Source of the DNA: Vibrio astriarenae
GTDB taxonomy: Bacteria > Pseudomonadota > Gammaproteobacteria > Enterobacterales > Vibrionaceae
Direction of reading: 5' to 3'
DNA: 64,000 nt
Assembly: GCF_010587385.1 (NCBI RefSeq)
Contig: NZ_CP047476.1
Span: 930,001-994,000 of the forward strand
Made by a program: the position numbers and the translations under genes. The notes below the pieces were generated by a model. It did not search any database and was not told where the DNA came from. It saw only the letters and a list, made by a program, of their open reading frames with translations. This document shows positions 33,176 through 61,817 of the stretch, in pieces. Numbering within the stretch: the first letter of the stretch is position 1; every line of letters starts with the position of its first letter.

Positions 33176-33184
33176 TATAGAGAC

Positions 33185-34478: not shown

Positions 34479-34615
34479 CACCAATAAATCAATATAAGCG
34501 TGGCTATATAGATACCCAATACACGTACCCTACAAACGCGGTATTGGCCATTACCCAACTGGCACTGATTCGATGGTTAAGTAAAAGTCTGGGGAATCTA
34601 ATAAAGGAAAATAAA

Positions 34616-38862: not shown

Positions 38863-40068
38863 ATGGAACGAATCTTTATTGTTGCCGCTAAACGCACCCC
38901 AATTGGCAGCTTCAATGGCGCCCTTGCCTCTTTATCTGCTATCGACCTGGGTGTGTGTGCAATCAAAGCAGCGCTTGAGTCTATTGACCTGCCTGTTGAC
39001 CAAATTGACGAAGTCATCGTGGGGAATGTTCTTACCGGGGGCACAGGGATGGGTCCGGGCCGTCAAGCTGCGATCAAGGCTGGCATTCCTGAATCCGTTC
39101 CCGCCTATACCCTCAACATGATTTGTGGCAGTGGCATGAAAGCAATTATGGATGGAGCCAGTCATATCCGTGCTGGCGATGCAGAGATTGTACTCACCGC
39201 GGGAATGGAAAGTATGTCCAATGCAGCGTATGTCTCCCCAGGTCAAATTCGCAGAGGCTACCGTATGGGTCATCAAACGATGGAAGACAGCATCATCAAA
39301 GACGGCTTAACAGATGCCTTTCACCATTACCACATGGGGATCACTGCAGAAAACATTGCAAAGCAGTTTAGCTTAACCCGCGAAGAGCAAGATGCTTTTG
39401 CTCTCCAGAGCCAACACAAAGCTGCAGCCGCTCTTGAAGCGGGTTATTTTGATGATGAAATCGCTCCCGTTTCAGTCAGGCAGCGTAAGCGTCAAGTCGA
39501 AGTCTCGACGGATGAATACCCTAAGCAGGACTGCACTTTTGAAGCACTGCAAGCTCTTCGACCTGCTTTTGAAAAGGAAGGCACTGTCACGGCCGGTAAT
39601 GCGTCAGGAATCAACGATGGAGCGTCTGCTATTCTGCTTGCCTCTGAGAGCGCGGTGAAAAGACACAACCTAACTCCTTTAGCTGAACTCATCGAATATG
39701 GACAAGGGGCTCTTGCACCTGAAGTTATGGGATTAGGCCCTGTATCTGCTATTGCTAACACACTCACCAAAGCAAACATGTCAATTGATGAGATTGAACT
39801 ATTTGAACTCAATGAAGCCTTTGCCGCGCAAGCACTCGGTGTGGTGCGTTCTTTAACTCAGCAACACCATATTGATGAAGCTTGGTTACTCGAGCGTTGC
39901 AACATTGCCGGCGGAGCAATCGCGCTCGGTCACCCAATTGGCGCTTCAGGCAACCGTGTGGTGACCACCTTAGTCCACCAGCTTAGACGTACACGTCAAG
40001 ACTACGGTCTCGCCTCTCTGTGTATTGGTGGCGGTATGGGAACCGCGCTGATCATCAAACGTTGTTAA
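38863..40068 (+). CDS. Acetyl-CoA C-acetyltransferase (thiolase)
   Basis: 401 residues of the thiolase family. The acyl-accepting Cys88 lies in NMICGSGMKA, His357 in ALGHPIGASG and the general-base Cys387 in LCIGGGMGTA. NEAFAAQALGV is also present. It interconverts two acetyl-CoA and acetoacetyl-CoA. It is the first gene of an operon with the two CoA-transferase subunits, as expected for acetoacetate or short-chain fatty acid use (AtoB role). PcaF-type 3-oxoadipyl thiolase is less likely because no aromatic-pathway genes are near. Confidence 0.9.
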   Translation: MERIFIVAAKRTPIGSFNGALASLSAIDLGVCAIKAALESIDLPVDQIDEVIVGNVLTGGTGMGPGRQAAIKAGIPESVPAYTLNMICGSGMKAIMDGASHIRAGDAEIVLTAGMESMSNAAYVSPGQIRRGYRMGHQTMEDSIIKDGLTDAFHHYHMGITAENIAKQFSLTREEQDAFALQSQHKAAAALEAGYFDDEIAPVSVRQRKRQVEVSTDEYPKQDCTFEALQALRPAFEKEGTVTAGNASGINDGASAILLASESAVKRHNLTPLAELIEYGQGALAPEVMGLGPVSAIANTLTKANMSIDEIELFELNEAFAAQALGVVRSLTQQHHIDEAWLLERCNIAGGAIALGHPIGASGNRVVTTLVHQLRRTRQDYGLASLCIGGGMGTALIIKRC

Positions 40069-40080
40069 TGGAGAATGACT

Positions 40081-40737
40081 ATGAAAAAAGCAGCGACTTC
40101 ACAACAACTTGAAGCGCTACTTCATGATGGTATGTCCATCATGATTGGTGGATTTATGGCAACGGGAGCGCCTGAAAAGCTGATCGACCTCCTGATTGAA
40201 AAAGACATTAAAGACATTACCTTGATCAGTACAGATACTGGCTCGCCTGGCAAAGGAGCCAGCCGATTGATTGCTCAAAAACGAGTAAAGAAACTCTATG
40301 CTTCTCATATTGGCACCAATCCCGAAACCGGTAGGCAAATGAACGAAGGCACTCTTGAAGTTGAACTCGTTCCACAAGGGACACTAGCGGAACGAATTCG
40401 CAGTGCTGGAGCGGGTTTAGGTGGAGTACTCACCCCAACAGGATTGGGCACAATCGTTGCTGAAGGAAAGAAGGTCATAGAAGTTGATGGCCAATCGTAT
40501 CTGCTAGAGAAGCCACTAAAAGCGGATCTTGCTTTTATTCGAGGCTCTAAAGTCGATCAACGAGGCAATGTGTTTTACAACAAAACAACTCAAAATTTTA
40601 ACCCCCTCATGGCGACGGCTGCCGACAAGGTTGTCGTTGAAGCAAAGCAAATCGTCGAACTTGGTGATATTCATCCCGAATCGGTACACACACCCAGTCT
40701 TTATGTCGATTACATTTTGGTGGAGGCGCAAGCATGA
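40081..40737 (+). CDS. atoD: Acetate/acetoacetate CoA-transferase alpha subunit AtoD
   Basis: About 218 residues. The ATG at 40081 has GGAG at proper distance, while the ATG at 40075 abuts it. Family I CoA-transferase alpha features are seen: MIGGFMATGAPEKLIDLL (oxyanion/CoA region), NPETGRQMNEGTLEVELVPQGTLAERIRSAGAGLGGVLTP and DLAFIRGSKVDQRGNV. With AtoA it moves CoA from acetyl-CoA to acetoacetate. Its end overlaps atoA by four bases. Confidence 0.9.
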   Translation: MKKAATSQQLEALLHDGMSIMIGGFMATGAPEKLIDLLIEKDIKDITLISTDTGSPGKGASRLIAQKRVKKLYASHIGTNPETGRQMNEGTLEVELVPQGTLAERIRSAGAGLGGVLTPTGLGTIVAEGKKVIEVDGQSYLLEKPLKADLAFIRGSKVDQRGNVFYNKTTQNFNPLMATAADKVVVEAKQIVELGDIHPESVHTPSLYVDYILVEAQA

Positions 40738-41441
40738 CTGCTCAATTAGAAAGTACGCAACTCACTAACATTCAATTAGATAAAAACACTATCCGTCGCC
40801 GTATCGCATGGCGTGTTGCACAAGAGATGGATGACGGAGATATTGTGAACCTCGGGATTGGCCTTCCAACCCTAGTCGCAAATGAAGTAGATAAAGATGT
40901 CGAGCTATTACTGCAAGCTGAAAATGGCCTGCTAGGGATTGACAGTTTAGCCATAGAACAACAGAGCGACGAAGACCTTGTTAACGCAGGTGGCCAACAC
41001 ATAACCGCTATAAAGGGGGCATGTTACTTTAACAGTGCTGATTCATTTGCCATTATCCGTGGCGGTCATGTTGATGCAACCGTGCTTGGTGCACTTCAAG
41101 TTGACCAGAAAGGAAATCTTGCCAACTGGATCATTCCCGGAAAAATGGTTCCTGGCATGGGTGGTGCTATGGACCTAGTCGTTGGGGCCAAAAGAGTGAT
41201 TGTCGCGATGGAGCATACTGTAAAAGGAAATCCCAAGTTACTTGAGGAATGCACCCTTCCTCTCACTGCCACCGGACAAGTGGATTTAATCATAACGGAA
41301 ATGGGTGTATTCGAGATTACGCCAGAAGGGATGGTTATGATTGAGCTCGCACCTGAGTTTTCAATTGAAGATGTGCAGAAAGCTACTAGCGCGCGTTTAA
41401 TTATCTCTTCGAACCTCATCACTATGCCGACTCGTTGTTAG
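40734..41441 (+). CDS. atoA: Acetate/acetoacetate CoA-transferase beta subunit AtoA
   Basis: 235 residues. The beta-subunit motifs are GIGLPT (41-46) and the catalytic Glu63 in QAENGLLGI, then GMGGAMDLVVGAKRVIVAMEHT near 140-160. Starts within the atoD stop (ATGA overlap), so it is translationally coupled. Together with the thiolase it converts acetoacetate to two acetyl-CoA. Two strong hairpins follow. Confidence 0.9.
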   Translation: MTAQLESTQLTNIQLDKNTIRRRIAWRVAQEMDDGDIVNLGIGLPTLVANEVDKDVELLLQAENGLLGIDSLAIEQQSDEDLVNAGGQHITAIKGACYFNSADSFAIIRGGHVDATVLGALQVDQKGNLANWIIPGKMVPGMGGAMDLVVGAKRVIVAMEHTVKGNPKLLEECTLPLTATGQVDLIITEMGVFEITPEGMVMIELAPEFSIEDVQKATSARLIISSNLITMPTRC

Positions 41442-41670: not shown

Positions 41671-42465
41671 CTAGAAGAACCACTTAACGCCAATTTCAGC
41701 CTTTAGCTCAACATCTCCTTCGTATTCTTTGCCATCAGGAGTTACGATGTCTGCACTTCCGTATTGCAGCTTAGTCATTAGCCACTGAGTACGATTTTGC
41801 TTGATTGGCGCGTTAAACATCAGATTAAATGCCTTAGACTCCATCTCAACCACATCGCCTGTAACTTTAAAGTACTCAGGCCACGCTTGAATGAACGCAC
41901 CTGCGTCGCCAATTGGCTGAGTCACAAATAGGTTCGCCATGAAACCATCTGCCGATTTACCCATAACATTACCCGTCGTGTAAGCTAGGTTTGGGAACAC
42001 CATCGCACCAAAGGTGTACTTTGGATTGATCAAAGCGATCGCACCAATCGACAACAAGGTTGTATCATCAAAACCACTGCCTTTAAGCTCACCGGCTTCA
42101 CCGTTCATGTGGATTAGATCGGTTGAAATGCCCACGCGTGGCATTAGCGGATTGTCCATCGCGTGAACTTGGAAGTATTGAGCACGACCATTTTGGTAAT
42201 CTAAACCAAGCTTGTCTTTACCCTCTACCTTAGCTTTGTCATTACCAAAGTTACCCTCAACAAAACCCGCAAACTGAATATCCTCTGTCCAAGCGCCGGT
42301 GAACATTGCCGATGCACGCATGTCAGCATCAGAGGTAACAAACAATGCAGCTTGCGTATATACACGGGTTAGGTCTGATGGGTCGATTACATCAGACTCT
42401 TCAGCAAATGCTACTGGAGCCGCTAGAGCAGCCAACATAGAAGTTGTAATAAGTTGCTTTTTCAT
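41671..42465 (-). CDS. Predicted outer-membrane beta-barrel protein
   Basis: 264 residues. A signal peptide (MKKQLITTSMLAALAAPVAFA) precedes a mature part rich in alternating polar and aromatic/hydrophobic residues, and the C-terminus ends in a phenylalanine (GVKWFF), the usual outer-membrane barrel ending. No named family was recognised; a porin-like or OmpW/nucleoside-channel-like barrel is possible. It is a single-gene unit between the ato operon and the RND efflux operon; a functional link to either is unproven. Confidence 0.65.
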   Translation of the reverse strand: MKKQLITTSMLAALAAPVAFAEESDVIDPSDLTRVYTQAALFVTSDADMRASAMFTGAWTEDIQFAGFVEGNFGNDKAKVEGKDKLGLDYQNGRAQYFQVHAMDNPLMPRVGISTDLIHMNGEAGELKGSGFDDTTLLSIGAIALINPKYTFGAMVFPNLAYTTGNVMGKSADGFMANLFVTQPIGDAGAFIQAWPEYFKVTGDVVEMESKAFNLMFNAPIKQNRTQWLMTKLQYGSADIVTPDGKEYEGDVELKAEIGVKWFF

Positions 42466-45799: not shown

Positions 45800-46882
45800 C
45801 TACTCCGCGATCACCACGAGATCACCCTCGCGAATACGCTGTAAGCCACCGGTGATCACGGTATCTTGTGGCTCTAGACCAGCGGTAATAAACACGTCTT
45901 GCTCAAGTCGATCTGTTACCTCAACCTCAACCTTGGTTGCGGTGCCGTTATCGACAATAAAGACGTACTGAGACAAGGCATCTTGGTATACGGCTTTATG
46001 AGGAACCGTTACGCCCACCACAGGCTCACTTGGTCTTAGGCCAACACGCACGTATTGATTCGGGCGGTATGCCATATCATCGTTAGCAAACTCAGCCGCC
46101 ACTTCAATTGCACCCGTCGATGGGTTGATTTTGTTATCAACAAAGCTGATTTCGCCGAGATCAAATTCTTCCTGACCATCAAGATGCAAGCTAACTAGGT
46201 CACGGTCTTCTGCTTGAAGTTTATGACGAGCCAGATCAGTCTCTTTAATTGAGAAGCTTGCCTCAATTGGGTGAATTTGCACAATGTCGGTTAGAGGGCC
46301 AAAGTTCGGACCAACCATGTCACCAATCGAGAAGTTGGTCTTACCCAACTGGCCACTGTAAGGCGCGCGAACCTTGGTTTGTTCAAGGTTATCTTGTTGC
46401 ACGACTAGGTTGGCTTTCGCAGACTGAACACGTGATTTCGCCATTGACAACTCAGCAGCGCTTACGTCCAGTTGCGCCTGCGAGATACCGCCAGTTTGCA
46501 GCATATTTTGGTTACGTTTGTGGTTAAGCTCGGTCAACGCTAGCGCCGCTGTCGCTTCTTCCAGTGTTGCACGTGCAGCATCAAGCGCCGCCTCGTAAGA
46601 GGTTGGGTCAATTTCAAACAGAACATCGCCTTTCTCTACCATGGCACCATCTTCAAAGCGCTTGCTTAATAAGTAGCCAGTCGTGCGTGGGGTTAACTTA
46701 GCAGACTCAATCGCCTGCATACGACCAACAAAGTGATGGGTTGGGCTATGTTCAAAGGCTTGCGACTTAACGACAGTAACCGGTTTAGCCGCAGGAGCAG
46801 CCGCTTGCGATGCGCTGTCAGAAGAGTCACCACAGCCAGTAAGAAGTAATGCCGTTGCTAAATACAAGGGGCGTAATTTCAT
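45800..46882 (-). CDS. RND efflux periplasmic adaptor lipoprotein
   Basis: 360 residues. A lipoprotein signal ends in LLLTGC. A split biotinyl-lipoyl domain ([30 protein letters not shown] and [22 protein letters not shown]) flanks a helical hairpin rich in Ala, followed by beta-barrel and membrane-proximal domains. It is the membrane-fusion protein linking the RND pump to the outer-membrane channel. The stop lies 5 bases before the pump start. Confidence 0.92.
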
Positions 46883-46914: not shown

Positions 46915-48270
46915 CTAAAGGGCTTTTTGTGATGTCAGTGCATTCACGTCAATAAGGTCTTGCTCTGTCAGCTCGCCAGCAAGAAAACGCAGTTGTAAAG
47001 AGGCGATCAAGAAGTCAATCTGCGAGTTACTTAATTGCTGCCTTGCTTGGTACAACTGGGTGGTGGCATTCAGCACATCAACAATGGTGCGGTTGCCAAC
47101 CTCAAAGCCTTGCTCGGTTGCGACCAGTGCTGATTTCGCAGAGCGAACCGCCTGCTGGTAGGCACGTTCCGCACTTTCTAATGCGCGAAGATCTTTTTCA
47201 GTGCTGCGGATATCTCGCGTAACTTCACGCCAGGTTTGCTCTTGCAGTTGCAAAGATTGCTGGTATTGAATATTGGCTTGTTCAACCTTGCTGGTGGTGG
47301 CACCGCCGCGGTATACCGGCAGGCTCATCGCGATGCCGGCAAATAGGGTTGAGTTGTTATCAAGGTCGTTAAAGTCGCCCTTGCTGTCATTCATGCCGTT
47401 TGAGCGAGACTGTGAAGCGAATGCATAGCGGTACTCCGCGACGAGACCAAGGGTTGGCATATGACCCGCTTCAGCTAAAGCAATCTGCTCACGAGAAAGT
47501 GACACAAGCTGCTGTTGGATCTGCATCTGTGGATTTGCCTTCTGAGCTTTCTGTTCCCACTGACTGAATGTGGCTTTTGGTGCCTCAAACTGCACTTGCT
47601 CAAGGGCAAGTGGCAATACTGAGTCGTAGCTTTTTCCGGTCAGCTCATACAGCGCATCGAGGGCTTTATCGACACTATTTTCAGCAAAGATCACCGATGT
47701 CAACGACAGGTCATACTGAGCCTGAGTCTCTTTAACATCGTTCTCTGGCACTAGGCCATTAGCAAATCGGTGCTTCATCTGAGCCAGTTGCTCACCAATC
47801 GCCTCGAGATTGGCCTGCGCCTGTTTCAGACTTTCTTGCTGCTTAAATGCGTTTAGATAGCTAGCTGCCACATTGAGCTTTAGCCCTTCTAAGGCAACTT
47901 GATAGCTTACTTGAGTTAGCTGAGTGGTTTGCTCCGCCAAACGTGCGCTAGCATTGAGCTCGGAGTTATAAAGGTTTTGCCCTGCACGCAGTGATGCCTC
48001 AGCGCCTTGACCATCGGTTTCATTCATTGTGGTCCAATCGTTACGCAATGCGCCGTATTGCAGACCGGCATCGACTTGTGGTCGGTACAATCCTGAGATT
48101 TGCTCTTGCTGACGTTGCGCTCGTTCGATTTCGTAGGCTGCCGACTTTAGCTCTGGATTATTCTCCAGTGAGTCTTTATACAAGCTCGACAGGTTCACCG
48201 CGCTCGCATTCGCGTTAGCACAAAAGAGGGTCAAACTAATGCACAGAGACAAGATGTTTTTGTTGTTCAT
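46915..48270 (-). CDS. TolC-family outer-membrane efflux channel
   Basis: 451 residues with a signal peptide (MNNKNILSLCISLTLFCANANA). Two TolC-type repeats are rich in Ala/Gln coiled helices (SLYKDSLENNPELKSAAYEIERAQRQQEQISG near the start; VEQANIQYQQSLQLQEQTWREV in the second repeat), with GNRTIVDVLNATTQLYQAR near the end. It forms the trimeric exit duct. It is the first gene of the operon; no local repressor of the TetR type was found. Confidence 0.9.
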   Translation of the reverse strand: MNNKNILSLCISLTLFCANANASAVNLSSLYKDSLENNPELKSAAYEIERAQRQQEQISGLYRPQVDAGLQYGALRNDWTTMNETDGQGAEASLRAGQNLYNSELNASARLAEQTTQLTQVSYQVALEGLKLNVAASYLNAFKQQESLKQAQANLEAIGEQLAQMKHRFANGLVPENDVKETQAQYDLSLTSVIFAENSVDKALDALYELTGKSYDSVLPLALEQVQFEAPKATFSQWEQKAQKANPQMQIQQQLVSLSREQIALAEAGHMPTLGLVAEYRYAFASQSRSNGMNDSKGDFNDLDNNSTLFAGIAMSLPVYRGGATTSKVEQANIQYQQSLQLQEQTWREVTRDIRSTEKDLRALESAERAYQQAVRSAKSALVATEQGFEVGNRTIVDVLNATTQLYQARQQLSNSQIDFLIASLQLRFLAGELTEQDLIDVNALTSQKAL

Positions 48271-48445: not shown

Positions 48446-48477
48446 GTATTTAATTAATTACTTATTAATTGAATTGA

Positions 48478-48705: not shown

Positions 48706-49695
48706 ATGACTACTATCGCAAAGCGAGGCCGTCCAAAACTGACAGAAACCGTCAAATTAGAACGAAAAGTAGCTTGTCAGTACATTAAGTTGATAGAACT
48801 ACGTAATCAATTCAATGTCAGCGTGCCTAAGTTGCATCCAACTTTGACTCCTAGTCAACAAAAAGCTCTTATCCAGCCAATATTTTCAGTAGCAGAAGAG
48901 TACAGATTTTGGTCTCAACTAGATAATGATTTACTGGCTATCCAACGGCACTCTTGCCCAAAAACTCGCTTCGATCAGTCGAGTGTTGAGATCTTGGCGC
49001 GACTGGACCAACTTATAATCAGCTATGAGCTGGTTATTTCGTCACGCCAACAGTTAGAGCAGCAAAGTTCACTTGCAGTACCTAATGATTTTGAGCTGTG
49101 GATTGAGCTTGTCAATCAGTTGAAACTTCAACCATTTGATACACAGACCCATCAACTATATCAGTTAGCCCGCTTTTTATATGGCTTACTGTATCCATCG
49201 TTTCAAATTGACCAAGTAAAACAGATTCGTACCATCATCCGTACCGTATTAGACCTAATTAAACACCATCGCTTGAGCATGGTTTATCACATTACCCCGC
49301 CTAATGTGACAGGTCGGCCTACGATTCCTTTACCAATACAGGTTGTTAGAGCAGAAGAAGAATTGATCACCCAGTTTAATAAGTTGAGTACTCTGTATAA
49401 GTTTCATCAACTTAAAATTCCAACCCCAAAATCGATCGCAGCTAAATATAGTGACGCACAGTTATCGACACTCGGACGTCCCAAGTTAAGTGAGCGCCAG
49501 AAACTTGAGCAAGCCATATTGAGAAGGGAAAAAGAGCTGATAGACCTGACTGACAAACACTCAGCTCAACCAGAACTTCAAAAAGTAACTGCGGCAAGAA
49601 GAGGCAGAAAACCAATGACCTACCAGGAAAGACACAAGAAACTGACTCAACAAATCACAACTTTAAAAACTCAACTACACCTTTTGCTAAAGTAA
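48706..49695 (+). CDS. Protein with four AT-hook-like motifs, function unknown
   Basis: 329 residues, basic, with no known domain recognised. Four GRP/GRK cores are spread along it: KRGRPKLTE (6-14), VTGRPTIPL (201-209), TLGRPKLSE (255-263) and ARRGRKPMT (297-305). Each is followed by a charged helix, and two are nearly identical (GRPKL[TS]E..KLE). Residues 15-195 are helical. AT-hooks bind the minor groove of AT-rich DNA, so a nucleoid- or silencing-type role is plausible. It is co-oriented with a cold-shock-like gene 12 bases upstream and the ToxR-like gene downstream. Confidence 0.6.
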   Translation: MTTIAKRGRPKLTETVKLERKVACQYIKLIELRNQFNVSVPKLHPTLTPSQQKALIQPIFSVAEEYRFWSQLDNDLLAIQRHSCPKTRFDQSSVEILARLDQLIISYELVISSRQQLEQQSSLAVPNDFELWIELVNQLKLQPFDTQTHQLYQLARFLYGLLYPSFQIDQVKQIRTIIRTVLDLIKHHRLSMVYHITPPNVTGRPTIPLPIQVVRAEEELITQFNKLSTLYKFHQLKIPTPKSIAAKYSDAQLSTLGRPKLSERQKLEQAILRREKELIDLTDKHSAQPELQKVTAARRGRKPMTYQERHKKLTQQITTLKTQLHLLLK

Positions 49696-49857: not shown

Positions 49858-50589
49858 ATGAGCTATTACTTGTTAAACCAGTCAGTTATCTATGATGGAC
49901 TTACAGGGAAGCTTGTATCACTAAGGAATGGTCAACATCATCAACTACGCTCTAACGAGTGGAAGTTGTTACAACTGCTCATTGACAATGCTGGACTCGA
50001 CATGACTGTCCCACAGATCTTAGAGTCTGTTTGGAAAGGCAGACGCGCTAAATCCAGTGTTGTTACTGCAATCAAGAACCTGCGTCATCAACTAGATGAT
50101 AGAGTTGATTCCCCTAGTTTCATTCAAACTCAGGTAATGTCCGGTTATGTATTTATCGCTCAGGCGGAAATAATAACTCAGCGAGATGTAAAGCGATTAC
50201 TGGCTCCACATCGCTCACACTGGATTCGTATTGTCTCACGCTTTCATCATATCCGATGGCAATTGGCTTGTTATTTGGCTAATGCCGCATGTCTAGCTGT
50301 CATCGTGCTTACCAGCCTGTCTCTATTTCGTCTAGGTGCATTTGATCAATATGTTACGATGAGGCAAAGCACAAGGGTAGTTCCAATGATAATCGCTACG
50401 CCGAACGGTGAAGCACCAAACAAACGAGCCATTAGGATATGTAACTCATTGCTTTTCGACGCAGAGCAAACATCTCGGTTATACCAATTACCGGTAGCAC
50501 CCGAAATTACCTCACCTCACCCAAGTTTGACTTGGTCTACTCATAATCGTGATTTATTAAAATGCCATCTACCACACATAAATTCATAA
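49858..50589 (+). CDS. ToxR/VtrA-like membrane-bound winged-helix regulator
   Basis: 243 residues. An N-terminal OmpR/ToxR-type winged helix (about 5-103: LLNQSVIYDGLTGKLVSL, then LRSNEWKLLQLLIDNAG, then SSVVTAIKNLRHQLDD and SGYVFIA) is followed by a linker and one membrane segment (about 135-157). A short periplasmic domain (160-243) has two cysteines (195 and 236) that could form a disulfide, as in ToxR. The next gene overlaps by 28 bases and encodes a ToxS-like partner. It probably senses an envelope signal and binds DNA while in the membrane. Targets are unknown; the nearby porin is the first candidate. Confidence 0.8.
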   Translation: MSYYLLNQSVIYDGLTGKLVSLRNGQHHQLRSNEWKLLQLLIDNAGLDMTVPQILESVWKGRRAKSSVVTAIKNLRHQLDDRVDSPSFIQTQVMSGYVFIAQAEIITQRDVKRLLAPHRSHWIRIVSRFHHIRWQLACYLANAACLAVIVLTSLSLFRLGAFDQYVTMRQSTRVVPMIIATPNGEAPNKRAIRICNSLLFDAEQTSRLYQLPVAPEITSPHPSLTWSTHNRDLLKCHLPHINS

Positions 50590-51113
50590 CCATATTGCTG
50601 TTTCTGGTTGCAATTGGCTTATGTATCTTTAATGAGGCTTATCGTAGTGCTCATCCTCTTTCCAAGGTCAATGTTGGCACCACATGGGGCTTTGTTCATC
50701 GTGGCTATCCTAGCCAGTTTGGTTATTTGAGTAATTATTGGGATCTGAGGGTCGTTGAAACTCATGGTCAAATCTATATTGATACCGACACGCGAATTTA
50801 TGCTCTTGCTTTTAAACTGTATAACTCTGAGAAAATGATTGGCGAGTTTTCCATACAATTTAACGTTGATTGGGAACTTAAAGAAAATTACCTTTACGTG
50901 TCAGTTCTGGAGCAGAGTATCCAAATCAACTATGTATCTGAAGGCTTTGATATTGAGCCAGTTCGAGGAATGTTGATCGATTTCATCCATGATATTTCTA
51001 AGTCCCCTAGAGAGCTGATTTCCAAGACCAATCAGGAACTGGTTTTCGATATTCCATACTTGGGTATAACTCGAACTAAGCGACTTCCTGAACCAACGTT
51101 GATCCAATTTTAA
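50562..51113 (+). CDS. ToxS/VtrC-like periplasmic partner protein
   Basis: 183 residues with an N-terminal membrane anchor (residues 8-24, FITILLFLVAIGLCIFN) and a periplasmic domain. The stretch FNVDWELKENYLYVSVLEQSIQI resembles the ToxS segment GEWEVSDNYLLLTPTDFKDI, and FDIEPVRGMLIDFIHDISKSPRELI resembles its following helix. ToxS stabilises ToxR, and VtrC forms a bile-salt-binding barrel with VtrA. The 28-base overlap with the regulator gene is typical of such pairs. The match is from memory and by eye. Confidence 0.7.
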   Translation: MPSTTHKFITILLFLVAIGLCIFNEAYRSAHPLSKVNVGTTWGFVHRGYPSQFGYLSNYWDLRVVETHGQIYIDTDTRIYALAFKLYNSEKMIGEFSIQFNVDWELKENYLYVSVLEQSIQINYVSEGFDIEPVRGMLIDFIHDISKSPRELISKTNQELVFDIPYLGITRTKRLPEPTLIQF

Positions 51114-51142
51114 ACTCACCTACGCGTGAGTGTTTACTTATC
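51112..51142 (+). terminator. Weak terminator after the ToxS-like gene
   Basis: CTCAC-CTACGC-GTGAG with flanking A and T bases follows the stop codon at 51113. The stem is short, so this is tentative. Confidence 0.45.
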
Positions 51143-51523
51143 TCTATTACTATACAACTTCAATCAATTAGGAAAAATTTACCCTAGCAAACACACTAAC
51201 ACACTGTTAGTCATCTACTACTTTACTTTTACTTCGACCTTCCTCATTGTTTTCACCGGTGCGCAAAACCTCCCTTTTCTCTTGGCTATCACTTCCTCTT
51301 CTATCTTTCGATTGCTTCATTTTCTTACCCAATATTGCCAAATACATCACATAACTGTTCTTAGCAAATCGAACCAACGAGTGAAACGTCAAATAAAATA
51401 AATAAACTTAGATGAATGGCCATATAAAACAACAACATAAACACAAATATAAAAAAAAGTAATTTAGTTTTTCCGTGGCACATTACTTTAACCTGCCCCC
51501 CTAACTCCGGCTAGGTGACGTAT
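51143..51523. other. AT-rich intergenic stretch
   Basis: About 380 bases, very AT-rich, between the ToxS-like gene and the 172-residue protein. Short open frames exist on both strands, but none has a good ribosome site or family match. AGGTGA at 51513-51518 is the ribosome site of the next gene. Promoters are likely but were not resolved. Confidence 0.5.
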
Positions 51524-52042
51524 ATGTTTGTTTTAAATAGTCCCAAAGTTAGCGATCTCACTTGGCTAATGCAGGACATTATTCGTAGCGTCAGGGAAGA
51601 CCAAATAGCAATACTGCCCAAGGAACGGGTATCCATCACTGCACAAATTGACTCATTGATTGAGCAGACTGAGGGAGCTGAGCAATACCTTCATTCCGAT
51701 CTTAATAATGCTTTAAAGCTCTTAGAGCGGATCTCGATCGTGGTCAACTTACATCGATACGCTCACCTGGCTATCCAAATTAATCGGGCAAGAGCGCTGA
51801 TCAATTCGTTGATCGCTAATCAAGACACTAAACCGTCTGCATGTACCAACCTGCTGGCTGCCTATTTGAGTACTCACGGCATCATCACAAATCAGGCTGA
51901 ACTGTATTGTGGAAACAAAGCCAGTATCACATCAGCTTATCAGACCGGCACCCTCACACTCAGTGAAGCGATTGACGCCTTTGAGGCTATTGTCGCGTGC
52001 AGTAACAAATTACAGATAAGCCAATTATCTCGAGCTTGTTAG
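51524..52042 (+). CDS. Helical protein of unknown function upstream of the porin
   Basis: About 172 residues from the ATG at 51524, five bases after AGGTGA; the GTG at 51515 is part of that site. No signal peptide or membrane segment was seen. It is mostly helical (SDLTWLMQDIIRSVREDQIAIL; SDLNNALKLLERISIVVNLHRYAHLAIQINRARALINSL) with three cysteines in the last 65 residues. No family was recognised. The porin gene begins 25 bases after it, so the two are probably one transcript; a cytoplasmic regulatory or adaptor role is only a guess. Confidence 0.6.
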   Translation: MFVLNSPKVSDLTWLMQDIIRSVREDQIAILPKERVSITAQIDSLIEQTEGAEQYLHSDLNNALKLLERISIVVNLHRYAHLAIQINRARALINSLIANQDTKPSACTNLLAAYLSTHGIITNQAELYCGNKASITSAYQTGTLTLSEAIDAFEAIVACSNKLQISQLSRAC

Positions 52043-53285: not shown

Positions 53286-53313
53286 AGAGTGACCACACGG
53301 TCACTCTTTTTTT
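53286..53313 (+). terminator. Intrinsic terminator after the porin gene
   Basis: A perfect 9-bp stem (AGAGTGACC with GGTCACTCT, ACAC loop) followed by seven T's. Confidence 0.93.
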
Positions 53314-54256: not shown

Positions 54257-54293
54257 AAAAACTCTTCCTTTAAGTAGTAATCAAGGAACTGTG

Positions 54294-55658
54294 ATGTCGC
54301 AGAGTCTTTTAAGATACACCAACATACTAAGTATTGTTGGTGATTTGATTAAGGTAGAAGTACCCAAACTTAATAGTGAAAATGCCACAGCCAAATATGG
54401 CGATCTTGCGATGATTGAGCAAGATGGTGAGAACTATTCATTAGCTCAAATCATTAAGATTGATAATGAAGAAGTCTCATTGCAGGTATTTGCAGGCTGT
54501 AAAGGTCTATCGACCAATGCCGCAGTCTGTTTTCTAGATCAGCCGATGAAGGTGACTTACTCACCGAACATTCTTGGTCGTATTTTCAACGGTGCAGGTC
54601 ATGCTATCGATAATGGACCTGAGCTCGAGACCGATCCCAAGGTTGAGATCGATGGCCCATCGGTCAACCCTGTCCGTCGTACACTGGCTTCACGTATGGT
54701 GCGAACCAACGTGCCAATGATTGACGTATTTAACACCCTCGTTGAATCACAGAAAATCCCAGTATTCTCGGTTGCGGGTGAGCCGTACAACAAGTTCCTA
54801 TCTCGAATTGCGATTCAGGCAGAAGCGGACGTGGTTGTGTTCGCAGGCATGGGTCTTATTTACGATGATTACCATTTCTTCAAAACCCAGTTTGAAGAGG
54901 CCGGTGTTTCCTCGCGCACAGTGATGTTTGTTAACCAAGCCTCCGACCCAACTGTTGAACGTCTGCTTGCTCCCGACATGGCGCTATCCGTGGCTGAACA
55001 CTTTGCAGTGGGTGAGAGCAAAAACGTGCTCGTTTTGCTTACCGATATGACCTCGTATGCGGATGCGATGAAAGAGATTGGTGTCTCTATGGACAAGATC
55101 CCTTCGAACCGCGGTTATATGGGTGATTTGTACTCACAGCTTGCTAAGCGTTACGAAAAAGCCTGTGACTACAAGGGCGCAGGCTCAGTGACTCTGCTTG
55201 CTGTTACGACGATGCCAGGCAACGACGTTACACACCCAGTACCAGATAACACCGGCTACATCACGGAAGGTCAGTTCTACCTTCACGATGGCGTCATTGA
55301 TCCGTTTGGCTCTCTATCTCGCCTGAAACAGATGGTTGTCGGTAAGCAGACTCGTGAAGATCACGGTGCGCTGATGGATGCCCTGATCCGCTTGTATTCT
55401 GAGGCCGTTGAAGCAAAGCAGAAAGAGGCGATGGCGTTTGAGCTTTCTGATTACGACCGCAAAACCCTTAAGTACGGCGATCTGTTCAAGAAAAACTTTA
55501 TGACGCTGGATGTCGATATGTCGCTGGAAGATGCCCTCGACCTTGGCTGGAAGATCCTTGCAGACTGCTTTGAAGCGGAAGAAACACTGATCAAAGACAG
55601 CTTGCTTGAGCACTACTGGCCATCAAACCAAACTTCCCCTGTTGAAGCGGAGGTTTAA
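54294..55658 (+). CDS. ntpB: V/A-type ATPase subunit B (regulatory, non-catalytic)
   Basis: About 454 residues from the ATG at 54294, six bases after AAGGA; an overlapping GTG at 54291 is less likely. It is a V/A-type B subunit: the P-loop is replaced by SVAGEPYNKFLSRI, as in non-catalytic subunits, and ILLTDMTSYADAMKEI-type and PDNTGYITEGQFYL stretches are conserved. It alternates with subunit A in the cytoplasmic hexamer. Here it is the first gene, whereas in chlamydial and spirochaetal operons it follows A. Confidence 0.93.
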   Translation: MSQSLLRYTNILSIVGDLIKVEVPKLNSENATAKYGDLAMIEQDGENYSLAQIIKIDNEEVSLQVFAGCKGLSTNAAVCFLDQPMKVTYSPNILGRIFNGAGHAIDNGPELETDPKVEIDGPSVNPVRRTLASRMVRTNVPMIDVFNTLVESQKIPVFSVAGEPYNKFLSRIAIQAEADVVVFAGMGLIYDDYHFFKTQFEEAGVSSRTVMFVNQASDPTVERLLAPDMALSVAEHFAVGESKNVLVLLTDMTSYADAMKEIGVSMDKIPSNRGYMGDLYSQLAKRYEKACDYKGAGSVTLLAVTTMPGNDVTHPVPDNTGYITEGQFYLHDGVIDPFGSLSRLKQMVVGKQTREDHGALMDALIRLYSEAVEAKQKEAMAFELSDYDRKTLKYGDLFKKNFMTLDVDMSLEDALDLGWKILADCFEAEETLIKDSLLEHYWPSNQTSPVEAEV

Positions 55659-55661
55659 TCG

Positions 55662-56285
55662 ATGTCCCAGGTAGCCTTGAACAAAAGCGCGTTAAACCAA
55701 GAAAAACGCAGCTTAAAGACATACAACCGCTACCTACCTGCGTTAGAGCTAAAGCGTCAACAATTGATGATTGAGCGTAAAAAAGCCGAGCAAGCATTGA
55801 GAGACGCAGAGCAGCGAGTCGCTGAGCTGCGCAGTATCGTCAAAGAAGCGATACCTATGCTGGCTTGCAAAGAGATTAGCGTGAACAACTTGATCAAAGT
55901 TCATAACGTTACACTCGATACGCAAAACATCGTTGGCTGTAAAGTGCCGGTGATCAAAGACATTGACTTTGAACTCACCCCTTACAGCTACTTAGCTCGC
56001 CCCCATTGGGTTGATAGTGTTGTGCGTCAATTGAAAGAGATGGTCCGCCTGCGTGTCGAACTGTCTGTTTTTCAAAAACGCTATGAGCTGATCAGTCATG
56101 CCACTCGCGTCACCAGTCAACGAGTGAATCTTTTCTCTAAGGTACTTATTCCACAGACAAAAGAGAACATTCGTCGTATCGGCATCTACTTGTCCGATCA
56201 AGACCGAGCCGCGGTAATGAATGCAAAACTGTCCAAGCAAAAAGTGTTAGCACAACAAGCCAAACAGCAGGGAGGTCAAGCATGA
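55662..56285 (+). CDS. ntpD: V/A-type ATPase subunit D (central stalk)
   Basis: 207 residues, predicted as two long helices (residues about 10-75 and 115-190), the shape of the central rotor shaft. The N-terminal LNKSALNQEKRSLKTYNRYLPALELKRQQLMIERKKAEQAL is typical of subunit D. It starts three bases after the B stop and overlaps subunit I by four bases, so translation of the three is coupled. No separate subunit F gene follows, as in the chlamydial-type operon. Confidence 0.9.
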   Translation: MSQVALNKSALNQEKRSLKTYNRYLPALELKRQQLMIERKKAEQALRDAEQRVAELRSIVKEAIPMLACKEISVNNLIKVHNVTLDTQNIVGCKVPVIKDIDFELTPYSYLARPHWVDSVVRQLKEMVRLRVELSVFQKRYELISHATRVTSQRVNLFSKVLIPQTKENIRRIGIYLSDQDRAAVMNAKLSKQKVLAQQAKQQGGQA

Positions 56286-58087
56286 GTATTAAATCACTAA
56301 AACGACTAACGCTTGGTGGCCAAGCCTCACGTCGTGAAGACATCCTCATTGCTTTGCAAGCGCTTGGTTGTATGCACCTGATTCCATTAAGTGAAGACAA
56401 TGCCAAAGTCAATCGTGCGATTGCTATGCAGCAGCCAACTGAGGCAAGTGAGGCACTCGCGTGGCTCAGTCGCCTCGAACGCCGTCGCCGTCCGGTCAAA
56501 GATAAAAGCTTGATCGATGTCGATGAGTTGGTGGCAGAGATCCTCGAGAACAAGCAGCGCATCCGCCAGCAACAAGATAAACGCGACCTACTCAAACAGC
56601 GTTTGCAACTGTTGCGTCCGTGGGGTGAGTTTGACTTGCCTGAGCTTGCTAGCATCCAAGGTCTGCGCTTTTGGTTTTATGTATTGCCACTGAAAAAGTC
56701 GGCAGCCCTGTCCAGCCTAGAGGTTCCTTGGCAGGAGATCTATCGCGACCAGAAAAATGCTTACATTATCGTGGTATCAGAAAACGAACCCGATAGCGGC
56801 ATTCTACCGGTTGAGCGCTCACGTGTTGGGCAAGATAGCTTATCCAAAGTTGAAGAGCATATCGAGATTGCCGAGCAGCACCTTGAAGACTTGTACGCCG
56901 AACGTGAAGCCTTGACTCGTTGGATTTATCCATTAAGTCAATCGCTTGCCGCAAGCCAGGATCATGCTGAGCTGTTGCTGGCATCATCTGGTGTTCAAGA
57001 TGAAGGGGAGTTCTTCCTCGTCCAAGGTTGGATGCCTGCCGATGCCGAAGAGGCGATTCTAGAGCTCAGCGAGGCCTTTGGCACCGCCGTGCTACTGGAA
57101 GAGCCGCAGGCTGACGACCAGCCGCCAACCTTGCTCGAAAACTCGGATCTGACCGGTGGTGGTGCAGAGGCGATGGGCTTCTTCCAAACCCCAAACTATC
57201 GTGCTTGGGACCCGGGTAATCTGGTGTTTTATTCATTCTCATTGTTCTTTGCCATGATTATGAATGACGCCATGTACTCGGCCATCTTTGGTGTGATTGT
57301 TCTGTTGTTTAGAGACAAGTTTGAGCAAAGCATCGAAGGACAGCGACTTAAGAACCTTGGCCTGTTTATGTCAGGACTTGGGGTGGCTTGGGGCATCTTA
57401 GCCGGTAGTTACTTTGGTGTAACACCGAGCGAGGGCAGCCTATTAGGCTCGCTGAACATCATCGATATGAACGATTATTCGGCGATGATGAAGCTGTCTG
57501 TGTTTATTGGTGTCATGCACCTGATCATCGCCAACGTGATGACTGCTTACATCAACCGTACTCAAACTCGCGCGCTGGCACCACTTGGCTGGGCCGCGTT
57601 AATGTTTGGCGGCATGGTGTATTGGTTTGCCGAAACCGGTACGGTTTGGCAAGGCCTTGGCAAGTTTGTCGGCGTTGTCTGTGCGATTGGTGGTGCGGGC
57701 CTTGTCTGCGTCTTTAGCAGCAACCGTCCTATCGACACGCCGAAAGGTCTGGCGCTGCGCATACTCGATGGTGCTAAAGCTATCTATAACATCACTGGTG
57801 CGTTCGGTGACATTCTCAGCTACATGCGTCTATTCGCACTGGGTCTGTCGGGTGCGTCATTGGCGATGACATTTAACTCACTTGCAGGTCAAGCTATTGA
57901 AGCTAAACCCGTTTCCGGCGTGTTGTTCGCTGGCTTGATTCTGCTTCTCGGCCATGTCCTTAACTTCGCACTCTGTATTATGAGTGGCGTGGTTCACGGC
58001 ATGCGTCTCAATGTAATTGAATTTGTAAATTGGGGTCTATCCGACGAAGGATACCCATTCAAAGCGTTTCGTAAGAAAGAGGATTAA
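56282..58087 (+). CDS. ntpI: V/A-type ATPase subunit I (membrane stator, a-like)
   Basis: 601 residues. An N-terminal cytoplasmic half rich in coiled coil (residues 1-310) is followed by about seven membrane segments (315-600). A conserved arginine in the SYMRLFALGLSGASLAMTFN helix (near 520) is the residue facing the rotor. It forms the ion half-channels next to subunit K and anchors the peripheral stalk. It overlaps D and is followed after three bases by K. Confidence 0.93.
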   Translation: MSIKSLKRLTLGGQASRREDILIALQALGCMHLIPLSEDNAKVNRAIAMQQPTEASEALAWLSRLERRRRPVKDKSLIDVDELVAEILENKQRIRQQQDKRDLLKQRLQLLRPWGEFDLPELASIQGLRFWFYVLPLKKSAALSSLEVPWQEIYRDQKNAYIIVVSENEPDSGILPVERSRVGQDSLSKVEEHIEIAEQHLEDLYAEREALTRWIYPLSQSLAASQDHAELLLASSGVQDEGEFFLVQGWMPADAEEAILELSEAFGTAVLLEEPQADDQPPTLLENSDLTGGGAEAMGFFQTPNYRAWDPGNLVFYSFSLFFAMIMNDAMYSAIFGVIVLLFRDKFEQSIEGQRLKNLGLFMSGLGVAWGILAGSYFGVTPSEGSLLGSLNIIDMNDYSAMMKLSVFIGVMHLIIANVMTAYINRTQTRALAPLGWAALMFGGMVYWFAETGTVWQGLGKFVGVVCAIGGAGLVCVFSSNRPIDTPKGLALRILDGAKAIYNITGAFGDILSYMRLFALGLSGASLAMTFNSLAGQAIEAKPVSGVLFAGLILLLGHVLNFALCIMSGVVHGMRLNVIEFVNWGLSDEGYPFKAFRKKED

Positions 58088-58090
58088 AAA

Positions 58091-58540
58091 ATGGAACATT
58101 TCGTTATTGCACTAGGTTGGTTAGGCGCATTCGCTCCAGTAGCGCTTGGCGCAATTGGCTCAGCAATTGGTTGTTCAGTTGCAGGACAATCGGCGTGTGG
58201 CGCAATGCTGGATGTTGAGTCTGGCTACGGTAAATACATCGGTCTATCGGCGATGCCTTCTTCTCAGGTTATCTACGGCATCGTGATCATGTTTACCCTT
58301 TCGGGTATCGGTGTGACTGACGCAACTGCGGGTGGTCTGTTTGGTATCGGTCTGATGACAGGTCTTGCGCTACTTTTCTCGGCTATCTATCAAGGTCAAG
58401 CGGTATCCGCGGCGATCAATGCATCGAAGAACAAGCCAGAAGTATTTGGTCTATCAATCGCACCAGCGGCTATCGTTGAAGGCTTCTCTGTATTTGCTTT
58501 CGTTTTCGCTTTGGTAATGGGCGGCAACATCGCCGCTTAA
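58091..58540 (+). CDS. ntpK: V/A-type ATPase rotor subunit K (sodium-type ligands)
   Basis: 149 residues, four membrane helices in two hairpins. Possible ion ligands are S58 and Q59 in MPSSQVIY, Q101 in YQGQA, and E130 in IVEGF, with Y62 nearby. These match the sodium ligands T64, Q65, Q110 and E139 (and Y68) of Enterococcus hirae NtpK, with a conservative Thr-to-Ser change. The first hairpin lacks a carboxylate, as in duplicated V-type K subunits. It probably couples ATP to sodium movement; proton use is not excluded by sequence alone. Confidence 0.9.
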   Translation: MEHFVIALGWLGAFAPVALGAIGSAIGCSVAGQSACGAMLDVESGYGKYIGLSAMPSSQVIYGIVIMFTLSGIGVTDATAGGLFGIGLMTGLALLFSAIYQGQAVSAAINASKNKPEVFGLSIAPAAIVEGFSVFAFVFALVMGGNIAA

Positions 58541-58550
58541 GGAACGGATA

Positions 58551-59231
58551 ATGACTACAGAAACTCAACACACTCCGGTATCTGCTGGCATTAAGCAGCT
58601 GGTAGAGACATTACGTCAAGAGGGCGTAGAGGCTGGCCAGTTGGCAGCCGATAATATTCTTGCCGAGGCGCGCAAAGAATCCGCTGCGATCATTTCTGAG
58701 GCAGAGGCAAAAGCTGAGCTTATCCTCGCGGACGCGAAAAGAGAAGCTGACTTTGTCACTTCAGCGGGTAAGCAAGCGTTTGAAATGGCTAATCGCAATG
58801 CCATCTTAGAGCTAAAAAGCTTCCTGCAAGATGAGTTTGCTCAGCAGATCCAGGCTACAGTCGGCACTCAACTGACTGACCAAGCCTTGCTTAAACAGAT
58901 GATCTTGGAAATCGCTGGTCGCAACGACATTAGTCGCGATGAAGCGCTAGAAGTCATCCTGCCAACCAAGGTTGTGGGTCTGAGCGATCTGCAAAACAAC
59001 CCTGAAGAGCTCAAGGAAGGTACCTTGATGCACTTTGCGGTTGCGCAAGCGGCAGAAATGCTCCGTGATGGCGTCACGTTTAATGTCAATGACGACAACG
59101 ACAATGCTGTTGTATTCCGTCTTAAAGACAAAGACATTGAGGTTGCGCTTTCAGATGAGACCGTGACCAAGATGATGCTAAACCACCTTCAGCCTCGCTT
59201 CCGTGCGTTGCTAGAAGGGATTGTTAAATAA
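58551..59231 (+). CDS. ntpE: V/A-type ATPase subunit E (peripheral stalk)
   Basis: 226 residues. The first 100 residues form a long alanine/glutamate-rich helix (ADNILAEARKESAAIISEAEAKAELILADAKREAD), and the C-terminal part is a globular domain that contacts A/B, as in all V/A-type E subunits. It begins ten bases after K. In chlamydial-type operons E is the first gene; here it comes fifth. A hairpin lies between it and the next gene. Confidence 0.88.
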   Translation: MTTETQHTPVSAGIKQLVETLRQEGVEAGQLAADNILAEARKESAAIISEAEAKAELILADAKREADFVTSAGKQAFEMANRNAILELKSFLQDEFAQQIQATVGTQLTDQALLKQMILEIAGRNDISRDEALEVILPTKVVGLSDLQNNPEELKEGTLMHFAVAQAAEMLRDGVTFNVNDDNDNAVVFRLKDKDIEVALSDETVTKMMLNHLQPRFRALLEGIVK

Positions 59232-59237
59232 GCGCTG

Positions 59238-59260
59238 AAAGGCAGGCTTGCCCTGCCTTT
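59238..59260 (+). terminator. Hairpin inside the ATPase operon (E to DUF2764)
   Basis: A perfect 9-bp stem (AAAGGCAGG with CCTGCCTTT, loop of 5) followed by TCTTCC in the 48-base spacer. It may act as a weak attenuator or RNA-processing signal that sets subunit ratios. Confidence 0.65.
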
Positions 59261-59279
59261 TCTTCCACAAGGAGCGAAT

Positions 59280-59960
59280 ATGGCCGAAAAAGCTTACCAC
59301 AGCCTTTTGACGTCGCTGCCGCATATCGACTCTCTGTTTGACAGTCAGGTAACGCCTATTTCACGTTATCAGCTTGAGCGCCGTCTAAGCAGTTTGTCAT
59401 TCACAGAGCGAAAGCTGCTAAGTAAAATTGAGCGCTTGATGCACTGGGATTCAGCCAAAGACGATACCAGTGACGCCGAGCTGATCAAGTTTGCCACCCG
59501 CACCCGAGAACAAGTCAACAGCAAAGTCCTTACAGAGCTAATTGACTGGCGACTCGACATGCGCACGGTTGTTGCGGCATTGCGCCACAAACGTGCGGGC
59601 GCTGGCGCACCGTCAAAGCCACGCTGGAGCTTCGGTACGCGTTACGAGTTTATTCGTCGTAACTGGAACGTGCCGTACTTCAATTTGCAATTTACCTTTC
59701 CTTGGCTGCCCGATGTGGCCAGGTATATGGAAGCCGACCAGAGCTTTGAGCTTGAACAAGAGCTGCTCAAGGCGGTATGGCATGAGCTTGATCGTGTTGA
59801 AACCACACAACGCTTCAGTTTTGAAGCCGTCGTGATCTATGTGCTGCGTTGGAATCTTGTCTCTCGCTGGACGACATACAATAACGAGCTTGCTATCGAG
59901 CGCTTTGATCAGCTCGTAGAGAATGCACTGGGCGAGTTCGCCCATGATCTGCCTAATTAA
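59280..59960 (+). CDS. DUF2764 protein of the V/A-type ATPase operon
   Basis: 226 residues matching the DUF2764 family (YHSLLTSLPHIDSLFD start, PISRYQLERRLSSLSFTERKLL, NVPYFNLQFTFPWLPDVARYMEADQSFELEQELL). The family is found almost only between subunits E and A of chlamydial/spirochaetal-type V-ATPase operons, in which no standard subunit C is encoded, so it may replace that subunit. Soluble and mostly helical. AAGGAG precedes the ATG. The role in assembly is inferred. Confidence 0.85.
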   Translation: MAEKAYHSLLTSLPHIDSLFDSQVTPISRYQLERRLSSLSFTERKLLSKIERLMHWDSAKDDTSDAELIKFATRTREQVNSKVLTELIDWRLDMRTVVAALRHKRAGAGAPSKPRWSFGTRYEFIRRNWNVPYFNLQFTFPWLPDVARYMEADQSFELEQELLKAVWHELDRVETTQRFSFEAVVIYVLRWNLVSRWTTYNNELAIERFDQLVENALGEFAHDLPN

Positions 59961-59981
59961 GAAAACAAAACAGGTTGTTCA

Positions 59982-61817
59982 ATGAGCACTGAAACTACTA
60001 ACACTACACCGACTGCCCACGTAACCGCAGTCATTGGTGACACCCTAAAAATCCGTCTGAACCCAGAAACCAAGGGCGCCCTTATCAAGAATGAGGTGGT
60101 CTATGTTATTCCTAGCCGCAAGCAAACCGAGGGTGCCGATGAGCAGCTGATGGCCGAAGTGCTGCGCGTGAATGGCGATAGCGCTGACATCCAAGTTTAT
60201 GAAGATACCCGTGGTGTCGCAGTTGGCGATGACATTATTCAAACCGGCGAGATGCTGACGGTTGATTTGGGCCCGGGCATCTTGTCGCAAATCTATGATG
60301 GCCTGCAACAACCTCTAGAGCGCCTAGCGCAAATCCACGGCAAATTCCTAAAACGCGGCATGCACGTTGATGCGCTTGATAAGGCCGAGACTTGGGCATT
60401 TACTGCTAAAGTACGTCAGGGTGAAAAGCTACTGGCAGGACAATCGCTAGGTAGCGTGCAAGAAGGCCGCTTTACTCACCAGATTATGGTGCCTTTCCAC
60501 ATCAAAGGCGAAGTGGAAGTGACTTGGATTCAAGAGGGTAACTTTACCGTTGATACCGTCATCGCCCACATTGTTGATGCAAAAGGTAAAGAGCACAAGC
60601 TGACCATGGTGCAAAAATGGCCAGTGCGTCAGTCGATTGCCAACACCTTGTCAGTCAAAGGCAACACCACACGCCAGTTCCCTTCTGAGCCATTGGTGAC
60701 CACCACTCGTACCATCGATACCTTCTTCCCGATTGCGCGCGGCGGTACGGGCTGTGTTCCTGGTCCTTTCGGCTCAGGAAAAACCGTTCTGCAACACGGT
60801 ATCTCACGTTATTGTGATGCCGACATCGTTATCGTGGTTGCCTGTGGTGAGCGCGCTGGTGAGGTAGTAGAAACCATCGAAGAGTTCCCTCACCTACCCG
60901 ACCCTAAGCATGGTGGCACCCTGATTGATCGCACTGTGATCATCTGTAACACCTCATCCATGCCAGTTGCAGCGCGTGAAGCGTCTATCTACACCGGCCT
61001 CACCCTTGGTGAATACTACCGTCAGATGGGCTTTAACGTACTGGTGCTGGCTGACTCGACTTCGCGCTGGGCACAGGCGATGCGTGAAACCTCTAACCGC
61101 CTTGAGGAGATCCCAGGTGAAGAGGGCTTCCCAGCCTACCTAGACTCGTCAATCAAGGGCGTTTATGAGCGCTGTGGCGTGATCAACAACGAAGATGGCG
61201 TGAAAGGCTCACTGACTATGATTGGTTCGGTGTCACCAGCCGGTGGTAACTTCGAAGAGCCTGTGACTCAGTCTACCCTAAGTACGGTGAAAACCTTCTT
61301 GGGTCTGTCGTATGAGCGTGCGTACAAGCGCTTCTACCCGGCCATCGATCCATTGATCTCATGGTCTCGCTACCTTGATCAACTCGAGCCTTGGTATGCG
61401 GAAAACATCGGTCCACACTGGGTTCCGACCATCAAAGAGATGAAGCAGCTGCTCGTGACTGGCGATAGCATCAGTAAAATGATGCAGGTGACTGGTGAAG
61501 AAGGTATTTCACTCGATGACTACGTGACCTATCAAAAAGCCCTACTGGTGGATATGGTCTACCTGCAACAGAATGCCTTCGATGACGTCGATGCATCGTG
61601 TAGCTTCGAGCGCCAGCAGTTCATCTTCAATAAAGTGGTTAACATTGCGCGTAACACTTATGACTTTGAAGATAAAGCAGATGCTCGTAAGTTCTTTACC
61701 GCGATGACACGTTATTTCCGTAACTTCCACTTTGCGACGGAAAACTCGGCTGAGTACCATGATTACATTGAACGTATTGACCACTTGTTAGAAGAGACAA
61801 TGGCAGCTTCACACTAA
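59982..61817 (+). CDS. ntpA: V/A-type ATPase subunit A (catalytic)
   Basis: 611 residues with the catalytic-subunit features: the non-homologous insert (about 110-200, KGEVEVTWIQEGNFTVD), Walker A GPFGSGKTV (261-269), the catalytic-Glu region ACGERAGEVVETIEEFP (288-303), and VLADSTSRWAQAMRE. It hydrolyses or makes ATP in the cytoplasmic head. It is last here and is followed by a strong terminator. In the usual chlamydial-type order A is followed by B; here that junction is broken. Confidence 0.95.
   Translation: MSTETTNTTPTAHVTAVIGDTLKIRLNPETKGALIKNEVVYVIPSRKQTEGADEQLMAEVLRVNGDSADIQVYEDTRGVAVGDDIIQTGEMLTVDLGPGILSQIYDGLQQPLERLAQIHGKFLKRGMHVDALDKAETWAFTAKVRQGEKLLAGQSLGSVQEGRFTHQIMVPFHIKGEVEVTWIQEGNFTVDTVIAHIVDAKGKEHKLTMVQKWPVRQSIANTLSVKGNTTRQFPSEPLVTTTRTIDTFFPIARGGTGCVPGPFGSGKTVLQHGISRYCDADIVIVVACGERAGEVVETIEEFPHLPDPKHGGTLIDRTVIICNTSSMPVAAREASIYTGLTLGEYYRQMGFNVLVLADSTSRWAQAMRETSNRLEEIPGEEGFPAYLDSSIKGVYERCGVINNEDGVKGSLTMIGSVSPAGGNFEEPVTQSTLSTVKTFLGLSYERAYKRFYPAIDPLISWSRYLDQLEPWYAENIGPHWVPTIKEMKQLLVTGDSISKMMQVTGEEGISLDDYVTYQKALLVDMVYLQQNAFDDVDASCSFERQQFIFNKVVNIARNTYDFEDKADARKFFTAMTRYFRNFHFATENSAEYHDYIERIDHLLEETMAASH

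Follow-up and report, generated by a model that had tools for sequence, protein, structure and literature searches.

The window analysed here (64,000 nucleotides, C2:930001-994000 of a two-contig, 4.8-Mb genome) carries two overlapping genes on the plus strand, set among the genes of an efflux pump and a porin (Table 1). An earlier note, made from the letters of the same DNA, had read the two as a ToxR/ToxS-like or VtrA/VtrC-like membrane regulator pair outside the classic loci. The open reading frames and their 28-base overlap are as the note described them. Moreover, the same genome has a separate, full ToxRS at C1:850 kb, so that the pair does lie outside the classic loci.

Table 1. Features of the regulator pair and the surrounding island (positions in the window; residues for the parts of the regulator)
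Feature	Position	Strand	Basis or remark
264-aa presumed envelope protein	41671..42465	-	signal-peptide-like start by eye; no Pfam match
RND (AcrB-type) inner-membrane pump, 1038 aa	42678..45794	-	PF00873
RND pump membrane-fusion protein	45800..46882	-	PF16576, E 4e-10
Outer-membrane efflux protein, divergent from CSD-GRP-pair unit	46915..48270	-	PF02321, E 2.4e-52
Cold-shock-domain (CSD) protein, 71 aa	48478..48693	+	PF00313, E 3.7e-9
GRP protein, 329 aa, four conserved GR[P/K/R] motifs	48706..49695	+	12 nt after CSD gene
VtrA/ToxR-like membrane-anchored winged-helix regulator, 243 aa	49858..50589	+	ORF, Pfam, model
Parts of the regulator	winged helix (wHTH), about 1-105; transmembrane (TM) helix, about 133-158; periplasmic, 160-243		C195 and C236 in periplasmic part
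Gene overlap, 28 bases	50562..50589	+	sequence; same offset in 7/7 loci
VtrC/ToxS-like partner, 183 aa	50562..51113	+	ORF, model
Terminator-like stem, weak T tail, after pair	51114-51131
175-aa protein, upstream of OprB gene	51515..52042	+	same 11/227 genomes as GRP
OprB-family carbohydrate-selective porin, 396 aa	52068..53258	+	PF04966, E 8e-28
Terminator-like site after OprB gene	53286-53307

The regulator and the gene overlap

The longer product had been described as a winged helix, a TM segment and a short periplasmic domain with two cysteines, and this order was borne out. The Pfam profile PF00486 (Trans_reg_C) matches residues 26-99 with an E value of 4e-12, above its curated cut-off. 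One hydrophobic segment follows (best 19-residue window, 136-154; helix 133-158 in the predicted model), and the rest is periplasmic. Both periplasmic cysteines are invariant in the 16 aligned sequences, and they may form a disulfide. In the model, residues 177-237 form a strand, a helix and two strands (block pLDDT 68-86). The fold search with the regulator covered residues 1-102 and is uninformative on the periplasmic domain, which does not resemble the ToxR one in sequence (54 of 100 shuffles were as good).

The ATG of the partner gene (50562-50564) lies over the TGC codon of the regulator's C236 (50563-50565), with a one-base shift. At all seven pair loci the partner ATG starts at the third base of the codon preceding the last Cys codon; the DNA itself was read in four of them, the window among them. 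Several co-component cassettes are described as tending towards such a Met-over-Cys overlap (Kinch et al. 2022, PMC9214523). Because the overlapping arrangement is conserved in every one of the seven loci while the partner is only 28-39% identical to the window copy in five of the other six (G325 being the sixth), we take the pair to be more than a chance juxtaposition.

The partner and its likeness to ToxS

The 183-residue product is, as the note had it, an anchored periplasmic protein: a single N-terminal membrane segment (best hydropathy window starting at residue 8; model helix 4-30) precedes an entirely periplasmic remainder. The model predicts for this remainder a barrel of about eight strands with a helix at 132-147. 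Model and fold search agree with the proposed likeness to known partners, in that ToxS and VtrC gave the highest Z scores and were both among the top Foldseek matches; lower-ranked matches include lipid-binding lipocalins.

At the level of sequence, hhalign aligned the partner profile collinearly with that of ToxS, TM to TM, W42 to W37 and W104 to W101, in a match that is weak (E 0.04, probability 1.3%). Only 23 columns remain aligned when 12 partner sequences are used, so the W42-W37 pairing rests on the first run. The periplasmic part alone, again with 12 partners, aligned to ToxS over 48 columns, with a score that 9 of 200 column shuffles reach. W42 is present in 12/12 partners and W104 in 11 of the 12. 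Trp37, Gly99 and Trp101 of ToxS are reported to be fully conserved (PMC13042144), and the window partner has no counterpart of Gly99. The note had likened the partner's WELKENYL (104-111) to WEVSDNYL of ToxS. The stretch does align with ToxS around the invariant W101, where ToxS row L077 reads WELSDNYL, but the exact form WEVSDNYL occurs in none of 19 aligned ToxS sequences. We rejected the claim that homology to ToxS is proven from sequence alone, the hhalign result being borderline.

Sequence searches with the partner gave little else. Neither Pfam nor NCBIfam gave a match, and at E <= 10, under filters that drop weak matches, the ToxS family PF17323 did not appear among its hits. Neither the partner sequence nor its profile gave more than chance matches in the PDB, a comparison with YqeJ gave no match, and a search for related loci in the genome contigs found none. 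No cysteine is conserved among nine aligned partners. The alignments comprised eight of the ten partner matches (A3, leaving out P0001, the window itself, and P0010, a 113-aa fragment), 15 of 16 sequences (A4, leaving out P0018, the window's own), 19 of 27 ToxS rows (A5) and 16 ToxR sequences (A6); in the last two, near-copies and truncated sequences were dropped by eye.

In a tree of winged-helix domains, the family of the regulator forms a separate clade (support 98/88) from that of ToxR (85/85), a split from chromosomal ToxR that the note had proposed to look for; the pair neither groups with ToxR nor is the genome's own ToxRS. The tree was built without VtrA and CadC, the latter because its winged helix lies outside the aligned stretch. 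YqeI falls on a very long branch inside the ToxR group, and we do not trust this placement. Elsewhere, G158 carries a ToxRS paralog pair on its second contig (L085:1489-2866), in which a ToxR-like gene precedes an additional, diverged ToxS (E 3.3e-18).

The island

The surroundings were read in the window from 40001 on, in about 20 kb around the six other pairs and in 16-19.5 kb in six more genomes of the genus in which GRP or the 175-aa protein has a match. Twelve of these 13 neighbourhoods contain the RND pump with its fusion and outer-membrane components, together with the 264-aa, CSD, GRP and 175-aa genes; eleven of the twelve have an intact OprB gene, and G126 has a remnant of it. The best-scoring solved relative of the pump is CmeB (PDB 5t0o_A, E 2.5e-246). 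The CSD gene is presumed to be the first gene of the CSD-GRP-pair unit. The GRP protein has no Pfam match, and its four motifs stand at matching places in 12/12 islands, each time with the CSD gene adjoining. By eye, the motifs resemble AT-hook cores. In the thirteenth neighbourhood, G065 (L049:7998-8603), the island has collapsed: a 201-aa hybrid begins like the 175-aa protein and continues with the middle of GRP, and no pump gene was seen within the 18 kb read. BLAST clustering had placed GRP and the 175-aa protein in one family; we discarded this grouping, as the link came from the hybrid gene. Direct comparison of the two proteins (four by five sequences) found no real similarity (best E 0.097).

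Across Vibrio and two further genera of the family, the pair comes after the GRP gene in 7/7 loci. Four of these loci have the regulator gene beginning no more than 22 nt from the GRP gene or sharing one base with it, an arrangement suggestive of a single transcript; 162-365 nt separate the two genes in the remaining three, the window included. Downstream, the 175-aa and OprB genes come after the pair in five of the seven, with other genes intervening in G038 and G203. Since a terminator-like stem follows the pair in the window, the 175-aa and OprB genes may form a separate unit. The 264-aa gene lies beside the pump in the seven pair-bearing islands and beside the 175-aa gene in the pairless ones.

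Five islands keep the pump, CSD, GRP and 175-aa genes without the pair (OprB is intact in four), and the pair is therefore not essential for the island. In the pump tree these five form one clade (100/100) nested among pair-bearing islands, with the two other genera outside. A single loss of the pair is the simplest reading, one that depends on the midpoint root. A tblastn search of six pairless stretches found no remnant of the pair (best match, E 0.27).

In two close genomes, G038 and G203, a LysR gene and a gene of the choloylglycine hydrolase family come after the pair; members of the choloylglycine hydrolase/penicillin acylase family lie at L016:7103-8170, L017:11077-12144 and L049:4424-5461 (called by Pfam for the L017 copy and by BLAST family for the other two). 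Such neighbors would fit, if weakly, bile- or acyl-amide-like compounds. Other neighbourhoods have amidohydrolase, M20 peptidase and beta-lactamase-family genes. In the window itself, inositol-catabolism-like genes and a transporter (29967-36058, by eye) and a thiolase (Pfam) with two CoA-transferase-like subunits (38863-41441, by eye) lie upstream. Just downstream is a V/A-type ATPase operon (54291-61817; D, A and c ring by Pfam, the rest by eye). Its 455-aa subunit occurs in 1/227 genus genomes (E <= 1e-60), so the operon may have been acquired. We considered it as a target and rejected it, since this distribution places it outside the conserved locus.

Distribution of the pair

The partner was found in 5/227 genus genomes, and a search of about 5.8 billion proteins returned 10 relatives, the window's own and one fragment included. 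The regulator profile matched in at least 7 of 329 family genomes, in 3 of 13 genera, a lower bound because at most eight candidates per genome were scored. Named relatives of the pair come from V. splendidus, V. chagasii, V. atlanticus and Vibrio sp., and regulator-only matches from V. ishigakensis and Enterovibrio makurazakiensis; their annotation is either winged helix-turn-helix or hypothetical protein. The GRP and 175-aa genes share the same 11 carriers among the 227 genus genomes, one of which (G065) has just the hybrid remnant, and none of the 216 genomes without them had a partner match. The setting of the pair is the same in two further genera of the family. OprB of the window type is found in 10/227 genomes (E <= 1e-40), nine of them island carriers, and relatives of the 264-aa protein in 45/227 (E <= 1e-20), a wider range than that of the island.

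DNA motifs

Seven bases before the CSD gene lies an AT-rich element, TTAATTAATTACTTATTAATT (48450-48470), which recurs in exact form nowhere else in the genome. Its 18-base core recurs with at most two mismatches in 11 of the 12 islands, all five pairless ones included; in the twelfth, G325, it has five mismatches, a level reached by 5.5% of that island's shuffles. A one-mismatch copy lies at C1:2225455, between RpiB-like and GntR-like genes (by eye). The element was rejected as a pair-specific operator: because pairless islands carry it, it is no evidence for binding by the pair. It may instead be used by the CSD or GRP protein, or help to translate the CSD gene. A promoter scan found no excess of sites (11, against 11.4 in shuffles), and no shared pair-specific motif was seen among the intergenic regions, those off the CSD promoter being judged by reading.

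Discussion

The two genes almost certainly encode a co-component transmembrane transcription regulator of the ToxRS/VtrAC kind, as the earlier note proposed; domain order, overlap signature and partner fold all speak for this. The regulator has an N-terminal winged helix of the OmpR/PhoB or CadC type, a single TM helix between it and the periplasmic domain, and a conserved cysteine pair with one member near the C terminus. The adjacent or overlapping downstream gene encodes, in the predicted model, a membrane-anchored, lipocalin-like broken barrel. With its relatives the pair makes up a small family, new among ToxRS-type sensor pairs, that lies beside an efflux pump and a porin, not virulence genes.

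We think it probable that this sensor controls the efflux and uptake genes of its own island. The partner barrel would most likely bind a hydrophobic molecule (a bile-like acid, a fatty acid or another RND-pump substrate) and pair with the periplasmic domain of the regulator. Pairing would change the activity or stability of the cytoplasmic winged helix, which would bind DNA while tethered to the membrane. From synteny, the main targets most likely lie in the island itself, namely the divergent RND pump operon, OprB and the 264-aa gene, and the cell would thereby match its efflux and its uptake across the outer membrane to how much of the compound is in the periplasm. Both VtrC and ToxS use this barrel to bind bile salts, each in its own way (PMC9214523, PMC13042144), and RND substrates activate ToxR upon efflux failure (PMC10225521).

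How much of the regulon lies in the island is a separate matter; that it is the main regulon is somewhat favored. The pair could be a true co-component sensor that the island merely carries, with its main targets elsewhere (host-association or virulence genes, or other porins). ToxR, TcpP and VtrA act on genes that are not their neighbors (PMC9214523), ToxR acts on porins (PMC10225521), and the island persists without the pair in five genomes. We nevertheless hold such distant targets to be unlikely, given that no partner match occurs among the 216 genus genomes that have neither GRP nor 175-aa gene, that the setting recurs in two further genera and that no virulence gene was recognised next to the pair.

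A lesser prospect, and a rather improbable one, is that the partner mainly stabilises or chaperones the regulator and is no ligand sensor, the output running through regulator abundance or C195-C236 redox state. ToxS has been likened to periplasmic chaperones (PMC13042144), TcpH inhibits proteolysis of TcpP (PMC11323476), and the regulator's cysteines are invariant; against this, VtrC and ToxS bind their ligands with this barrel fold (PMC13042144), and the lipocalins among the lower fold matches bind lipids. As for the pair being a diverged and relocated ortholog of ToxRS or VtrAC, the regulator's winged-helix profile does align to ToxR (E 1.9e-16). The genome's full ToxRS, the separate clade (in a tree without VtrA) and the absence of PF17323 from the filtered partner matches make such an origin very hard to credit.

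Returning to control of the island by the pair, a bolder and tentative version, which we rate as possible but not probable, is that evolution made the sensor a dedicated controller for a self-contained transport island, gauging the pump's own substrate in the periplasm and balancing RND efflux, OprB/264-aa uptake and the CSD-GRP module. The latter, a cold-shock domain with a four-GR[P/K/R]-motif protein, may act on RNA or DNA. If such a dedicated controller is real, the co-component design is primarily one of envelope homeostasis, reused by pathogens, and not a virulence device. The locus is compact and lets one test directly whether RND efflux substrates and ToxRS-like sensing are linked, as has been proposed. 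In Vibrio and two other genera the pair adjoins an efflux pump and a porin, apart from the same cell's ToxRS. Annotation easily misses such a partner, which matches nothing in Pfam or NCBIfam and, where it has a name at all, is called "hypothetical protein".

Comparison with known systems

Listed co-component pairs are found in enteric bacteria and tied to virulence (PMC9214523). No published report of the pair is among the matches listed, nor does it appear in passages on known regulators in PMC10269533; supplements and most subscription papers lay outside the search. With ToxR/ToxS the pair shares a winged helix-TM-periplasmic regulator with two invariant cysteines, one near the C terminus, and an anchored barrel partner; these are its nearest winged helix and nearest barrel by fold, with two core Trp residues in register. 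It differs in its separate clade, in coexisting with the genome's own ToxRS, in a shorter stretch between winged helix and TM helix than in ToxR and in its efflux and porin island. The genes of the window pair overlap, whereas Table 1 of PMC9214523 does not mark ToxR/ToxS as overlapping. VtrA of V. parahaemolyticus is described as having no conserved disulfide (PMC9214523), whereas the window family has two invariant cysteines; no T3SS2 was recognised near the window pair, and its barrel is nearer ToxS than VtrC by Z score and Foldseek E value. The nine aligned partners, having no conserved cysteine, have no FidL-type disulfide in the barrel. The pair is absent from the cassettes listed in Table 1 of PMC9214523; it shares with TcpP/TcpH, PsaE/PsaF, STM0344/STM0345 and other overlapping cassettes a partner start codon placed over the last Cys codon of the regulator with a one-base shift.
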